Assembly (NCBI GenBank): GCA_018820315.1
Contig: JAHJOQ010000012.1
Coordinates: forward strand, 1 to 47,380
From: Candidatus Zixiibacteriota bacterium
Lineage (GTDB): Bacteria > Zixibacteria > MSB-5A5 > JAABVY01 > JAHJOQ01
Direction: 5' to 3'
Length of the DNA stretch: 47,380 nt
Positions 155-30,569 of the stretch are shown one piece after another. The position numbers and the translations under genes were made by a program. The notes under the pieces were generated by a model that saw only the letters and a program-made list of their open reading frames with translations, was not told the DNA's origin and made no database searches. Position 1 is the first letter of the stretch. The number at the start of each line of letters is the position of its first letter.

Positions 155-628
155 ATGGAGCAGATTTCGGAATACTTCTCAAAATATATCTCAATAATGA
201 CTGCATTGGTCACACCAATTATCGGAGCAATAGTGGCTTACATTGCGTATCAGCAATATCGAATCAGGCGTTATGAAGTTCGCATGTCGATGTATGACAA
301 ACGCTATGCAGTGTTTGAAACTGTGATGGAATATCTCGCTAGCGTAGTTGAGCACGGCAAGGCCGATGCTGATAAGGCAAGGCTCCTTCTCCGATCTGCC
401 GCAGAGGCGCAATTTCTATTTGATGAAGAGATTGAAAAGTTCATAAAGGACGTATACCATCATGCGCTTGAAGATAACACGCTTCAATGGCGCTTTGATA
501 AGGCACAGACTCCAGAGCTGAGAGATCCCATAATCGAAAAGCAGAATCAAGTTCTCGATTGGTTCGAATGTGAACTACACCACGCCAAGTTGCTTTTCGA
601 TCCATATCTCAAACTGGGGAGATTCTGA
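155..628 (+). CDS. Small membrane-anchored protein of unknown function
   Basis: This is a 157-residue protein. One hydrophobic segment (about residues 14-34, ending YIAYQQY) is followed by a basic stretch (RIRRYEVR) and a long charged helical region to the C-terminus, so it is probably anchored by its N-terminus with a cytoplasmic helical tail. The RRYE..MSMYDKRYAVFE style resembles short uncharacterised bacterial membrane proteins with an N-terminal anchor and coiled domain, but I do not recognise a named family. It is followed after 34 nt by another small gene on the same strand, which suggests co-transcription. No strong ribosome site is visible before the ATG, so the start is only moderately secure. 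Confidence 0.7.
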   Translation: MEQISEYFSKYISIMTALVTPIIGAIVAYIAYQQYRIRRYEVRMSMYDKRYAVFETVMEYLASVVEHGKADADKARLLLRSAAEAQFLFDEEIEKFIKDVYHHALEDNTLQWRFDKAQTPELRDPIIEKQNQVLDWFECELHHAKLLFDPYLKLGRF

Positions 629-24256: not shown

Positions 24257-24363
24257 CATATTGCACCCATTATCACACCCCCTTGCCGGAAGACATATAA
24301 ACTTGACATAGTCCCGCCTGGCACGTTTTGTTGATTAATATCTACAATGCGAAAGGCATCACT

Positions 24364-24627
24364 GTGGGATTCCGGAAGAGACCGTTTCTATTCTCGGCTA
24401 TTGTCGGACAAGAGAAACTCAAGACGGCATATCTCGCCAATATCGTCAATCCCGGCATCGGCGGCCTTCTGATATCTGGACCAAAGGGCACCGGCAAAAG
24501 CACAGTCGTGCATTCAATCACCACGGTATTGCCGGACTATGACGCTGTCGAGGACTGCGATTTCAATTGCGATCCCGACAGACCGGACAGATTCTGCACG
24601 CTCTGCCATGAGAGATCAGACGACTGA
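24364..24627 (+). pseudogene. Truncated Mg-chelatase-type (BchI/ChlI-like) AAA+ ATPase fragment
   Basis: The reading frame gives only the first 87 residues of a BchI/ChlI-like AAA+ ATPase. It has RKRPFLFSAIVGQEKLKTAYL, the Walker A loop SGPKGTGKSTVVHSI and the cysteine-rich CDFNCDPDRP.RFCTLC element, then stops at 24627. A complete BchI subunit is over 330 residues, so Walker B, sensors and the C-terminal domain are missing. I place the start at GTG 24364, where homology begins; an earlier TTG at 24328 is possible. TTGACA at 24303-24308 could be the old -35 box. It abuts an oppositely oriented truncated gene, and the two share a break at about 24616-24627. Not expected to be functional. Confidence 0.8.
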
Positions 24628-24747
24628 CATGTCAGTAGCCGCCCGCAGATCGATTCTCGCCAGGGAATACTCCTGCCCCGCCAACGCTGTGTTTGCGAAC
24701 ACGAGAGCGATCAGGGACACTATAAGACACAGTACACGTAGGTTCAT
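24616..24747 (-). pseudogene. 5' fragment of a secreted protein gene
   Basis: A minus-strand start ATG at 24747 with GGAGG 8 nt upstream begins a textbook signal peptide (MNLRVLCLIVSLIALVFANTALAG) followed by only about 19 more residues (QEYSLARIDLRAATDMSVV) before a stop. A real translation-initiation region and signal sequence with almost no mature protein indicate a gene cut off after its 5' end. The break coincides with the end of the convergent ATPase fragment, so both lost their 3' parts in one event. A TTGACA-like box is present upstream near 24829-24834 (minus strand). Confidence 0.7.
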
Positions 24748-25080
24748 CTCGAAATCCTCCTAATCATGTCTGGTTAGACCTTGGGCGGTAACGATAGCCA
24801 AGCACTCAGAAGTATAAGACGGACAAACTTGTCAATTGTTGCAAGAAAGGCGAGGCAGGCAGGATACTACTTCTGGAATCCACAGTTTACGGACATTGGC
24901 CTGAATAGCGGCATAATTGTCTGCGCGGCTTGAGCACCGGTCACGCAGTGGTGAAATGCCTGTGTGGATCACCTTACTGCACAATCCTTGCCTCTTGAAT
25001 TGTCTGCTAAAGGGCATACATAACCAAGGGAAAGAGCACGAATTGAGTCCATCAGCAATCTCCGGCTCGCCTCGCGCATA
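24748..25080. other. 333-bp intergenic region
   Basis: The left end carries the leader of the truncated secreted gene (AGGAGG, and a possible promoter containing TTGACAAG on the minus strand around 24828-24834). The remainder, up to the 3' end of the membrane-protein gene at 25081, shows no gene, strong hairpin or repeat. Confidence 0.5.
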
Positions 25081-25995
25081 TCAGAAAAAGTCAAAAAGAT
25101 CGTTGAGCGACACAGCTGTGCTAACTGCTGATACCAAGACCATGATGATTACAGCTATGTATTCTATGGCTAAATGGACTTCACCAAAAACAAACATCAC
25201 GAGCTGCTGGACTAAGGGAATGTGGGAGCCTGTCCCATGGAGCAGTCCATAAGTCGCGAGACTGAGAATAATGCCTGAAGCAAGCGGTCCAGCCAGTCCT
25301 TTGACGAGGAGCAGTCCTGCAAGAAGCAATCCCGCTGAGAAGAAGTGCCAAAAGTGCCCATTGTCAGAGGAAAGCAGAGCGTACGTAAGGCAGCCCAGGA
25401 ATGCAACCCCAGCCGATAGGGTCGGTATCGCCATCCTGTCTTTCACTCTGGCTACCATCAGATACCAAATCGCGAGAGTGATAATCACACCGTATCCCAA
25501 GATTTCGAGCGCGATTAACATCGCATGGTCTGGACCGATACTTGATCGGAGAATCCACAATATGAATACGTATATAAAATAAGAGGCCGTACTCCACCGC
25601 ACAGCCAACCTCGCCGCGTTGCTGTCTCCGAGGTTTACATGGCGCATCGCCGCTCTTCGATAAGAATACGGATCCCGTTGTATTGGTAATGTGACTGGAA
25701 TGTCCTCAAACTTCGGCAAAGGCAAAGAGGGTAAATCAAAGGATGTATCTCTGAATATCGGCAGGGAGGGCAGGGAGGAAGGCACTTTTGGTTTGATGTG
25801 AGGTGTCTCCTTGTTTGCTCTCCAGTACTTCAACTCTGAATGCAACCAAATGAGTGGGATAAGCAAGATTACAATCAGGATCACGATCTCCATCTCTGGT
25901 GGAGGAGGCGGATACGTTTTTAGCAAACGCACCAGGATGACCACCAGCAGGATTGACAGTAATCTGAGACTCCAGATCCTTGTCCGGTCAGTCAT
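25081..25995 (-). CDS. Multipass membrane protein downstream of the TIR gene
   Basis: This 304-residue integral membrane protein has about eight hydrophobic helices (approximately 9-25, 35-52, 138-157, 165-184, 193-212, 219-245, 248-268 and 278-296). A Pro-rich loop (KTYPPPPPEME) lies after the first helix, and a cytoplasmic-type segment (about 55-130) is rich in Pro, Leu and acidic residues. I recognise no family. It starts 63 nt after the TIR gene stop on the same strand, with GGAAG before the ATG, so the two are probably co-transcribed. Multipass proteins beside TIR domains occur as membrane partners in defence operons, but that role is inference here. Confidence 0.72.
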   Translation of the reverse strand: MTDRTRIWSLRLLSILLVVILVRLLKTYPPPPPEMEIVILIVILLIPLIWLHSELKYWRANKETPHIKPKVPSSLPSLPIFRDTSFDLPSLPLPKFEDIPVTLPIQRDPYSYRRAAMRHVNLGDSNAARLAVRWSTASYFIYVFILWILRSSIGPDHAMLIALEILGYGVIITLAIWYLMVARVKDRMAIPTLSAGVAFLGCLTYALLSSDNGHFWHFFSAGLLLAGLLLVKGLAGPLASGIILSLATYGLLHGTGSHIPLVQQLVMFVFGEVHLAIEYIAVIIMVLVSAVSTAVSLNDLFDFF

Positions 25996-26058
25996 GATTC
26001 TTCCAGCCTTTCGCCTCTCTCACGCCCTCAGCTCCTCCACCGGCCCGTTGAAGGCCGC

Positions 26059-27204
26059 CTACAGCAGAGAATTCGGCGGTCGTTCTCGATCTTCTCCATC
26101 TGCCCGCAGTGCCTTCTTGATTCTAGCAATTGAGTTCTGTAGTTTCGACCTGTCTTTCTTCCAGCCAACAAGATTTTCAGCATGTCTGTCAGTCAATAAT
26201 GATGCCCGGCTGTTCTGCCAGTCAAAAAGATAACCATCCAGGTTCAGGGGAATCATGGCGAGTGTCTTCTGGTTTCGCTCCTTCCATAGTTGCTCTTCTT
26301 TCCTTAGCGCTTTGTCGATCTCCGTGTTGACCCAGTAACTTTCCAGTGACGATTTGGAGCAGCAAAGAATCACCTTGTCCCACCTGCTGATGCCCCTATC
26401 TATCTGATCTCGAATGTCGTCGCCCGGCAGTATCTGGTGCCTGTCTAGCCAACATCGAATGCCTTCGTTCTGCAGGGCATCAAAGAGATGAGTAGCGAAC
26501 TCCTTGTCATCGTGACTGTAGCTGATGAAGCAGGAGTAGTACTCGCTGGCCTTGGTGTGCAGGAGTTTGTACCAGTCGATCAGGCTGTCCGGAAGGCCGC
26601 AGCCGCGGAGGAACACATCGGGAAGCCCCTTGGACTTGATCAGTGTCTGATAGTCTACAGAGCTCGCTGACATGTGCTTGCACATATCAAGTCCAAATGC
26701 ATCGGTTAGGTTTACTGACAGGAATCGTGCTTGATAGAGGTAGGCTCCTGTGAAATCTGCTCCAGTTAGATCAGTCGCAGAGAAAATCGTCCCAGTTAAA
26801 CCGGCCTGTATTAGTACAGCGCCGAACAAGTCGGCTCCTGAGAAATCTGTGAGATAACAGTGTGATTTGATGAGTCGAGCATTCCGGAGATTTGTAGAGT
26901 GAAATTCCGCTTCCAACAGAAATGCGCTGGAAAGGTCGGAATTGCTTAGATTCGCCGCCTCGAACTCCGTGCGCCCCTCGACAAAAGTGAGCCTCTTGCC
27001 AAAATGCGCAGCAGTCAGTATTGTTGACTTCAAATTCGCGTCAGATAAGTTGATCCCCTGTAGGTTCCTTCCATTTAGATTTGCGCCATGCAATTCGTAA
27101 TTGTCTGCACCAAAGTCTGGCTTCAGCGTCGGATTCTCCTTCCTCCACTTATTCCAAGCTTCAACGCCCTGCTTCAAGATCTTCACATGCTCTTCATTCG
27201 CCAT
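26059..27204 (-). CDS. Pentapeptide-repeat protein with C-terminal TIR domain
   Basis: This is a 381-residue protein with two modules. Residues about 35-180 are pentapeptide repeats (A(N/D)LxG..L series such as GANLNGRNLQGINLSDANLK and SGADLFGAVLIQAGL), a right-handed beta-helix. Residues about 222-345 are a TIR domain: CFISYSHDDKEFATHLFDALQNEGIRCWLD, GDDIRDQIDRGISRWDKVILCCSKS, then SYWVNTEIDKAL. The glutamate in VNTE corresponds to the catalytic Glu of TIR NADases. TIR enzymes of bacterial immunity degrade NAD+ or make signalling nucleotides; the pentapeptide part may sense or assemble. The ATG at 27204 has GGAGG about 11 nt upstream. It sits among broken genes, as expected for an accessory locus. 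Confidence 0.88.
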   Translation of the reverse strand: MANEEHVKILKQGVEAWNKWRKENPTLKPDFGADNYELHGANLNGRNLQGINLSDANLKSTILTAAHFGKRLTFVEGRTEFEAANLSNSDLSSAFLLEAEFHSTNLRNARLIKSHCYLTDFSGADLFGAVLIQAGLTGTIFSATDLTGADFTGAYLYQARFLSVNLTDAFGLDMCKHMSASSVDYQTLIKSKGLPDVFLRGCGLPDSLIDWYKLLHTKASEYYSCFISYSHDDKEFATHLFDALQNEGIRCWLDRHQILPGDDIRDQIDRGISRWDKVILCCSKSSLESYWVNTEIDKALRKEEQLWKERNQKTLAMIPLNLDGYLFDWQNSRASLLTDRHAENLVGWKKDRSKLQNSIARIKKALRADGEDRERPPNSLL

Positions 27205-27334
27205 TGTCTGCTATTCCTCCGCTGCCCGCCCCACAAAAAAACTCCCAGCCCGTAATCTCCTCGAGCTTCTCAATTCCGATCTCGTAATCGTAGGGACTGC
27301 CCGGCAAAATCTCCGACTGATTCTGAAAACACAT
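27194..27334 (-). CDS. Possible small protein overlapping the TIR gene start
   Basis: A 46-codon minus-strand frame has coding-like composition (acidic and aromatic; for example PGSPYDYEIGIEKLEEITGWEF) and stops 11 nt inside the TIR gene. It has no good ribosome site at its ATG (27334). A competing frame from an ATG with AAAGGGGAG (27361) is Arg-rich and looks non-coding. It could be a small upstream protein of the TIR operon or the tail of a degraded gene. Low confidence. Confidence 0.25.
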   Translation of the reverse strand: MCFQNQSEILPGSPYDYEIGIEKLEEITGWEFFCGAGSGGIADNGE

Positions 27335-27358
27335 TGTACGGTTGTATCGAACGGATCC

Positions 27359-27721
27359 ATGGTCTCCCCTTTAGCTATCATCAACATACACTCAGAGCTA
27401 CAGTCTGTCAACTGGAAACCCAACCAACTCGGTCGCCGCAACCTTCAGCCGTACCAACGCGCCGAACTTGCCCTCAAGCTGGAAGATGTTTTCAGGGAGA
27501 AGGCGAAAGAGAATCAAAAGGTTCATGGCGGGACAGCGCCAGGCCGAACACTTTCGCAGATATCGGCAGAACCGATCGACACACGATCCGAACTCGCCCG
27601 AGTCGCTGGCGCATCCCTCACTCAAATCTCTGCAATTACTTTGATATGTCCAAATCAGCAGTCGGGAAATTCATCGCCGTTCGAGTCTCCCGGTGCGGGT
27701 CCTCCTGCAAAGATGTATTGA
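27359..27721 (+). pseudogene. Fragment of a ParB-like / plasmid-replication-type DNA-binding protein
   Basis: A plus-strand frame contains NQLGRRNLQPYQRAELALKL then EDVFREKAKENQ, and further on AEPIDTRSELARVAGAS (about 27420-27640). This is the NQLGRRNL...AKENQ...ELAKVAGVS pattern of ParB-related proteins encoded on plasmids and integrative elements, known from general experience. The N-terminal nuclease-like/ParB domain and everything after the helix-turn-helix start are missing. The frame then runs into sequence antisense to a dockerin tail. The fragment is therefore about 75 residues of a longer gene and marks an old mobile-element insertion or deletion. Confidence 0.6.
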
Positions 27722-27768
27722 ATCAAGTATAGAACGTCATCGACGTCAATCGCGCAAAAACCACTCGT
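27655..27768 (-). pseudogene. Orphan 3' tail of a dockerin-type gene
   Basis: A minus-strand frame ending at TGA 27655 reads SGFCAIDVDDVLYLIQYIF then AGGPAPGDSNGDEFPDC. It is a single dockerin-like half with normal C-terminal ending, matching the modules of neighbouring secreted proteins. Upstream the frame loses similarity after about 27768 and meets a stop at about 27808. No signal peptide or main domain remains. It is the surviving end of a gene removed by a rearrangement whose other edge is the ParB-like fragment near 27640-27655. Confidence 0.75.
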
Positions 27769-28118: not shown

Positions 28119-30569
28119 CTATTTCATGAGCACCATCTTTCTGGCGTCAGTGAAGTCGTCCGCCGATATCGTGTAGAAATAGATACCGGATGATACCGGC
28201 TCGCCGTCGTCGGTCGTACCATGCCATGTGACATTGTGCTCTCCGGCCTGCATGATGTCGTCGACGAGTGTAGCGACACTCTGGCCCATGATGTTGTAAA
28301 CTGCGAGCGTGACGCGCGAGTCCTTCGGCAGGCTAAAGCTGATCTGTGTTGTCGGATTGAACGGGTTGGGATAGTTCTGATTGAGTGCGTAACTACCCGG
28401 TATCATACGGCCCTCGGTCTGCCTGTTGAGTTGCGTTTCGAGCCTGCCGCCGCCCTCGGCGACAGCGGCCGAATTGACAAGTTCCAACTTACCATCACCT
28501 TCGTATGAGATACTGATGATGTCGATCCCACCTGCGGGGATCATGTTCTGACCGTAGATGTCGATCAACCCAACCTTGAACATACCGTCAGTTTCGCTGA
28601 AGAAGACGCCAACACCATCGATTAGACTTCTTGCCTCCAGTTTCGAAACATCTCCGGAGGCCGCGAACTCGAACTGGGCAGCCTGCACCTCTCGATCTGC
28701 ATCCAGCGACAGCGTAAACGAATTTCCGCCGTCGTGGCCATCACTCATGACCACTCCGACGCTGCCAACCACTGTCTTGGGTGGTGCGGACTTGCCACCA
28801 CCGCAGTCTCCCGGTGCCGGTCCACCGGCGAATATGAACTCGATGAGGTAGACTACGTCATCGATATCGACTGTGCCGGAGCAGTCAGCGTCACCAGCCT
28901 CGTAGGGAATTGGCGGCTGGCCGCCTGCGAAGATGTATTCAATCGAGAAGACGACATCGTCGATATCGACAGCACCGTTGCCATCGGCGTCGCCATCCAC
29001 GTAAGTACCTTCGTATACAGCATCCCAGATCGACTGGCCAATAATCGGAGGAACAGTCGAACCATCCTTGTACGTTATTCCGGCAGGCGTCATGCTTGTC
29101 GACGTAACCGGGACGCATGCGGGCGATCTAGTGTATTGATCATAGTTAACACTGACAGACCCCCAGTTGAGATTCCAGCTAGCTGTCAAGTCGATAAGAT
29201 CGACTGACTGACCCGGTGTCAGATGGAGCGGATCGGCGTTTGATCCGTCAAAAGCGCGAATGAGGAGAATACAATTTTGTTCAACACTCCCTTGAGTCGA
29301 GATGTTGCGAACTGTTGTGGACGTTCCGGGAGCAGACAGTCCGTTGCTCCACGTATAGCTGATGGAACCCTGAGATCCCCCGACGATGGGCAGTTCAATC
29401 GGGATTGTCACCATCCAGACATACATATCGTCCCAGGTGTTGTTTCTCAGACGAATCGTAACCGTGCTGGAGCCACTTCCTGTCGCCGTTATCGGACTGG
29501 GAAACAGGACTTGAAGACCGGATTGACTCGGCACCTCAACCGGATGAGGAACTGTCAGGAGTTGGTCTATTCCCGATAGGAAATAGAGGCTGAATTGTAA
29601 AGCATCGCCATAGGTCGGTTGGCAGGAGAAGAAGGGATTCGCCCAGCCGTCATACTCCCAACTGGCTGTAACAGAGGAGGGGACAGGCTGGGGGTTGTTG
29701 CTGGTAAGGTAAGATATCATATAGACCAGGTCTGCAACAGACAGCACCAAGCCATCATTGTTCGGATCCCACTTGTGGCCATTGAAGCAACTCGCTTCGC
29801 CGTACAAATTCGACATAGTCAACTGGTCAACGAAACTCAGCATTTCACGCTGTCCAATGACGTCCTGAAAATACTCGTACGGAGGCAATACATCAATTGT
29901 TGGGAGGCCGTTCTTACTGAATGCGTCATCATTATAGTGCATCACCGACATGAAGTCGTACGGGCCGAACATGAAGCCTACCCATGTCGAGTCGGGCGAG
30001 TGAATGTAGAAATTGGATTCTCGACCCGCTTCGATGTTTCCCCAGTTGATCTGCACGAAATCATCGCGATCTTCGCGACTCTGTTCGTGCCAGAGTCCGA
30101 GCGCATGTCCGAGCTCATGTGTGATGATGAATTCCCAGGTCCAGTTGAAGATGTTAACAACCTGCTCTCCCCCGATACAACCGACAAATGAGTTGTTACC
30201 GGTTGAACTCTGAATATGGATGTAATCGGCCTGTGTAGTTCGAGGAATGAAATCTACTCCAGAGACTTCCTCCCAATTTGACATCGCCTGGAGTGCCCTA
30301 GTCCGATTCGTCGAGTTTACATTTGCGTCGAACTCGTAGGGTACCACTCCATTGACCCACAACTCGTTGTACATACAGCCGAGTGTCATCTGATCTTCAA
30401 AATCGATGGGAACTATGATGTCCCCTTCTATGATCTTGCATCCCTCAGGGACACCGTCGATTCTCTCGCCGGAACCGGGGGTTCCGCCTGCAAATGCAAT
30501 GCATGTCAGCAGCGAAATCATTGTCGCAACGACAATCATCTGCCTGGTAGTTGTTGTTACGAAGTTCAT
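28119..30569 (-). CDS. Secreted astacin-family (M12A) metalloprotease with dockerin-like and T9SS-type C-terminal domains
   Basis: This 816-residue protein starts at the ATG at 30569, after GGGAGAGAG; a longer frame lacks a site. A signal peptide (about 1-27) is followed by an astacin catalytic domain (about 70-285). The zinc motif HELGHALGLWHEQ has ligands H151, H155 and H161; the Met-turn SVMHY is at 208-212, followed by the astacin-typical DDAFSKNGLPTI. A middle region (about 290-560) contains beta-rich adhesion-like sequence. Two dockerin-like halves (GDADGNGAVDIDDVVFSIEYIF and GDADCSGTVDIDDVVYLIEFIF) lie at about 580-640. The C-terminal NQNYPNPFNPTTQI...KKMVLMK domain (about 730-816) is the FlgD/T9SS-type sorting end. 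Probably a secreted or surface endopeptidase. Confidence 0.94.
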   Translation of the reverse strand: MNFVTTTTRQMIVVATMISLLTCIAFAGGTPGSGERIDGVPEGCKIIEGDIIVPIDFEDQMTLGCMYNELWVNGVVPYEFDANVNSTNRTRALQAMSNWEEVSGVDFIPRTTQADYIHIQSSTGNNSFVGCIGGEQVVNIFNWTWEFIITHELGHALGLWHEQSREDRDDFVQINWGNIEAGRESNFYIHSPDSTWVGFMFGPYDFMSVMHYNDDAFSKNGLPTIDVLPPYEYFQDVIGQREMLSFVDQLTMSNLYGEASCFNGHKWDPNNDGLVLSVADLVYMISYLTSNNPQPVPSSVTASWEYDGWANPFFSCQPTYGDALQFSLYFLSGIDQLLTVPHPVEVPSQSGLQVLFPSPITATGSGSSTVTIRLRNNTWDDMYVWMVTIPIELPIVGGSQGSISYTWSNGLSAPGTSTTVRNISTQGSVEQNCILLIRAFDGSNADPLHLTPGQSVDLIDLTASWNLNWGSVSVNYDQYTRSPACVPVTSTSMTPAGITYKDGSTVPPIIGQSIWDAVYEGTYVDGDADGNGAVDIDDVVFSIEYIFAGGQPPIPYEAGDADCSGTVDIDDVVYLIEFIFAGGPAPGDCGGGKSAPPKTVVGSVGVVMSDGHDGGNSFTLSLDADREVQAAQFEFAASGDVSKLEARSLIDGVGVFFSETDGMFKVGLIDIYGQNMIPAGGIDIISISYEGDGKLELVNSAAVAEGGGRLETQLNRQTEGRMIPGSYALNQNYPNPFNPTTQISFSLPKDSRVTLAVYNIMGQSVATLVDDIMQAGEHNVTWHGTTDDGEPVSSGIYFYTISADDFTDARKMVLMK

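Follow-up and report, generated by a model that had tools for sequence, protein, structure and literature searches.

The stretch of DNA analysed here (the window, 47,380 nt) carries on its minus strand a gene for a pentapeptide-repeat/TIR protein followed by a gene for a multi-span membrane protein (Table 1). The open reading frames, their lengths, their strand and the 63-nt spacing are all as described in an earlier, sequence-only reading of the window, which had put the two genes forward as a candidate defence pair. The start of the TIR gene has GGAGGA just 5' of it, and that of the membrane ORF a GGAAG-type ribosome site in the same position; no terminator-like site was found inside the gap. 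Seven promoter-like sites were detected in the region against 3.4 expected, the best of them being the one upstream of the TIR gene, and the two genes are probably co-transcribed. Both genes are atypical in their synonymous codons, as expected of acquired DNA: the TIR gene scores -0.003 and the membrane gene -0.026, against a range of 0.016 to 0.126 among 27 other long ORFs in the window. Orientation, spacing, the upstream promoter-like site and this similarly atypical codon usage are the only links between the two genes.

Table 1. Features of the TIR gene, the membrane-protein gene and their surroundings (nucleotide positions refer to the window)
Feature	Position	Strand	Remarks
AAA/Mg-chelatase-type ATPase fragment	24328-24627	plus	99 aa; Pfam; gene remnant downstream of the pair
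Orphan membrane-protein gene	25081-25995	minus	304 aa; downstream of the TIR gene
Intergenic gap, TIR gene/membrane gene	25996-26058	minus	63 nt
Pentapeptide-repeat/TIR gene	26059-27204	minus	381 aa
Codon of putative catalytic Glu295 (SYWVNTE)	26320-26322	minus	computed from residue 295
Endonuclease-tail remnant	about 27236-27425	minus	just upstream of the TIR gene; resembles a 99-aa ORF elsewhere in the genome
Promoter-like site TTGACA-17-TATGTT	27383-27411	minus	upstream of the TIR gene; 10/12, consensus match only
TIR protein, N-cap helices	residues 4-23
TIR protein, pentapeptide beta-helix	residues about 36-170
TIR protein, FLRGCGLPD linker	residues about 185-221		conserved
TIR protein, TIR domain	residues 223-366		W291 and E295

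The description of the surroundings as a patch of broken genes was broadly right, since the pair is flanked by an AAA/Mg-chelatase-like fragment and an endonuclease-tail fragment. The latter shares two blocks of 86% identity with L157:3684-4006 on contig C30 of the same genome, where the 99-aa ORF matches the tail of a DNA/RNA non-specific endonuclease. On that contig the endonuclease tail is followed by different genes, whose products are likewise orphans and probably have a membrane anchor. A short repeat at window positions 27692-27755, which reads like dockerin-repeat coding sequence, recurs with 76-84% identity on several other contigs and at window positions 28805-28864. Synteny with relatives was of no help, since within the order the oxidoreductase gene next to the pair has only distant paralogues. 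The gene pair, its atypical codons and the flanking remnants would fit a small acquired cassette in an accessory-gene spot.

The 381-residue protein had been read as a pentapeptide helix joined to a TIR domain with a catalytic-type glutamate, and Pfam bears out both parts (TIR_2, E 2e-24, residues 226-329; Pentapeptide, E 4e-20), the glutamate being E295. W291 and E295 stand in the W-x-x-x-E spacing that is typical of NAD-cleaving TIRs, where it lies in TIR helix C. An AlphaFold model built with 41 sequences reached a pLDDT of 86.6, with the cap, rod, linker helices and TIR domain all confident; low confidence was confined mainly to loops, chiefly residues 256-272, and to the C-terminal tail. 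A structure search with the protein returned mainly pentapeptide rods, plus one TLR1 TIR domain, and among the PDB entries related in sequence to the TIR domain is the NAD+ hydrolase AbTIR.

Scanning genomes with an alignment of four sequences yielded 113 relatives, 80 of which were kept, and a viral set added six more. When the window protein was aligned with 94 further members of the family (95 chains in all), the plan proved constant: an N-terminal cap, a pentapeptide rod, a FLRGCGxPD linker and a TIR domain, all of which the window protein has within one chain. In the linker, F198 and G203 are invariant and G201 is conserved at 95%; in the TIR domain, position 295 is Glu in 94/95 chains, position 291 is Trp in 97% and E303 is invariant. 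Because Glu295 and Trp291 are conserved, the TIR protein is likely to be an NAD-processing enzyme, and this half of the earlier interpretation gains from the comparison. The family is widespread, with hosts among the Acidobacteria, Anaerolineae and other Chloroflexi, Planctomycetes, Verrucomicrobia, Chlorobi, proteobacteria and cyanobacteria and in one archaeal bin, and some members stand in tandem. It has no name: we found no dedicated NCBIfam or PADLOC model spanning its full length, and in the literature searched neither a paper treating the family nor enzymatic or phage data for it. Two related loci depart from the plan. In a genome of the same class (G017, L005:1438-2254), the copy is apparently broken, its pentapeptide and TIR parts being encoded in different frames that overlap. 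In a further genome (G066, L004:847-1974), the same N-cap and pentapeptide rod end in hydrophobic helices instead of a TIR domain, which suggests that the rod is common to different effector ends.

The genomic surroundings of the family were compared by a PADLOC scan of genes within 1.5 kb of family members and genes lying beyond 3 kb (145 each, the far set being an imperfect control). Both sets gave mostly single-protein hits, with no recurring defence family and no clear enrichment in the near set, so that we infer a defence role for the TIR protein from the type of its TIR domain only. The genome of the window holds a second strong TIR gene, a Mrr_cat-TIR fusion followed by a DUF4062 gene (L036:3560-4915, contig C95), and a stand-alone SIR2-domain (SIR2_2) gene of 299 aa (L162:1165-2064, contig C32). 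A STALD scan of the genome, looking for a ThsA away from the TIR gene, gave no match, and control genomes likewise gave none.

The second gene of the pair encodes an orphan. Its product had been described as an eight-helix protein with a Pro-rich loop and no recognised family, and we obtain the same picture: between seven and nine hydrophobic segments as the threshold is varied (eight at 1.2), ordered as two N-terminal helices, a Pro-rich loop at about residues 60-115 with 11 Pro, and about six further helices. By the positive-inside rule, the loop is predicted to face the cytosol. In 1000 Markov shuffles of positions 24601-26060, the longest open frame reached 290 codons (mean 117); the membrane ORF is longer than the maxima of all the shuffles, and an open frame of this length is therefore unexpected by chance. 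The protein had no family match in Pfam, PADLOC, NCBIfam or PHROGs, no recognised macro, SLOG, SIR2 or other ligand-binding domain, and nothing meaningful in the PDB, plasmids, phages or IMG/VR. No convincing relative was found in about 85,000 species genomes by a scan that detects close relatives only; distant homologues may thus exist beyond the sensitivity of such collection scans. Across the 133 genomes of its phylum set, there were only short, weak matches, the best of which (E 0.0013) lies in a frame with stops. The 50 genomes carrying the TIR family likewise gave no convincing relative. Weak matches in three TIR-family genomes (E 0.003-0.008) did not hold up: in two of them the match was confined to 74 residues of a protein with nine segments, which, on our own reading of its motifs, looks like a FecCD-type permease, and the third had no tblastn hit. 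Foldseek matches were disregarded, as the single-sequence AlphaFold model was poor (pLDDT 53.5) and the best match had an E value of 0.77.

We asked whether the membrane gene recurs beside the TIR family at 85 family loci, taking as neighbour the first gene downstream that encodes 100 aa or more and calling genes by a simple longest-ORF heuristic. The next gene was on the same strand in 42 loci and on the opposite strand in 37; at the other 6 the contig ended first. At 21/85 loci a gene on the same strand lay no more than 200 nt away, and only three of these 21 genes encode at least three TM segments. Two of the three read to us as transporters, one MFS-type and one sodium:alanine-type, and the third is a 146-aa protein; none is a relative of the window's membrane protein. 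About 7% of all neighbouring genes have at least four segments, so that two of 21 is near background. The membrane gene thus recurred at 0/85 loci, and no membrane gene follows the TIR gene of G085, which has the closest full-length relative in a search of 98 related genomes. Since the downstream neighbour varies from locus to locus, the pentapeptide-TIR family occurs without this membrane partner, and the membrane gene is not a shared partner of this type of TIR protein. Within the scope of the searches, it was never found beside a TIR gene in another genome. The sequence-only reading therefore divides: its TIR enzyme stands, while its two-gene defence pair is not borne out, and a two-gene defence system extending beyond one genome is not supported.

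The locus is probably best explained as a single-gene TIR effector whose pentapeptide part is a sensor or scaffold, accompanied by a lineage-specific membrane passenger or accessory. The TIR gene product would be a self-sufficient cytosolic effector of the widespread pentapeptide-TIR family, in which the rod and its capping helices may serve as sensor or scaffold. Engagement of the rod or cap would bring TIR domains together, an activation by assembly, and the TIR domain would then use Glu295 to cleave NAD+ or to make an NAD-derived signal; either would most plausibly serve an abortive response, whether to phage or to another stress. The downstream gene, though probably transcribed with the TIR gene, would stand outside any conserved two-gene system. 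One could instead suppose that the TIR domain serves as an adaptor without enzymatic activity, and that the pentapeptide protein works outside defence, in housekeeping or regulation. The lack of defence-gene enrichment nearby and the tandem arrangement of several family members are compatible with such a role, but an adaptor would not need Glu295 and Trp291, which are conserved across phyla, and we consider it unlikely.

The remaining alternatives give the membrane protein a part to play, and the compact co-directional layout and similar codon bias do leave room for a true lineage-specific pair. In a two-gene defence system, a nucleotide signal from the TIR enzyme, or binding to the Pro-rich loop, would cause the membrane protein to open or disrupt the membrane. 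Two genes on the same strand, 63 nt apart, with a promoter-like site upstream, no terminator-like site between them and similarly atypical codons would accord with such a system, and Thoeris systems with TM-macro ThsA effectors (PMC11204291) offer a precedent. However, the membrane protein was not found elsewhere, no membrane partner recurs in the 85 family loci and no macro, SLOG, SIR2 or other ligand-binding domain is recognised in it, which together make this system rather unlikely. A lineage-restricted immune module, in which the pentapeptide-TIR enzyme would control a new multi-span membrane effector through the Pro-rich cytosolic loop, seems to us quite improbable. The membrane protein might also act in the opposite sense, as an antitoxin-like inhibitor or anchor restraining the TIR protein; its downstream accessory position and the predicted cytosolic location of the loop would accord with this, but other family members exist without any such gene, and we hold this to be very improbable. 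We thus return to the single-gene effector with a membrane passenger or accessory. The family to which it belongs is common across environmental bacteria, with the catalytic-type Glu and a distinctive linker conserved, and for a study of TIR function beyond the known systems the pentapeptide-TIR protein is a sensible single-gene choice; as long as no relative of the membrane protein has turned up, that protein contributes little.

Among known systems, the arrangement of the two genes recalls Thoeris, since forms with TM-macro ThsA effectors exist (PMC11204291) in which, as in the window, a TIR gene lies beside a gene for a membrane protein. Unlike TM-macro ThsA, the window's membrane protein has many spans, no recognised macro domain and no match to a ThsA-type model. 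A Thoeris-like TM effector was rejected: no ligand-binding domain is recognised in the membrane protein, which cannot be placed with ThsA (SIR2-SLOG, TM-macro or other) and matches nothing in Pfam, PADLOC, NCBIfam or PHROGs. HetL, MfpA and Qnr share with the TIR protein a right-handed beta-helix rod, but the window protein scores far below their curated cut-offs, and the matches cover the rod only and not the TIR domain. AbTIR (8g83), an NAD+ hydrolase, matches residues 219-303 (E 4e-8) and, as is generally known, has the same W-x-x-x-E spacing; its matched chain (184 aa), unlike the window protein, has neither a pentapeptide rod nor a FLRGCG linker. On plasmid pSR-5 of Skermanella rosea, a pentapeptide-repeat gene lies upstream of the TIR part on the same strand; unlike in the window, an IS256 pair stands between the two parts and no membrane gene comes after. 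The TIR part itself (WP_228435692.1), annotated by type as a 'toll/interleukin-1 receptor domain-containing protein', has the same linker and TIR domain as the window protein, with a match of 53% over residues 182-381.
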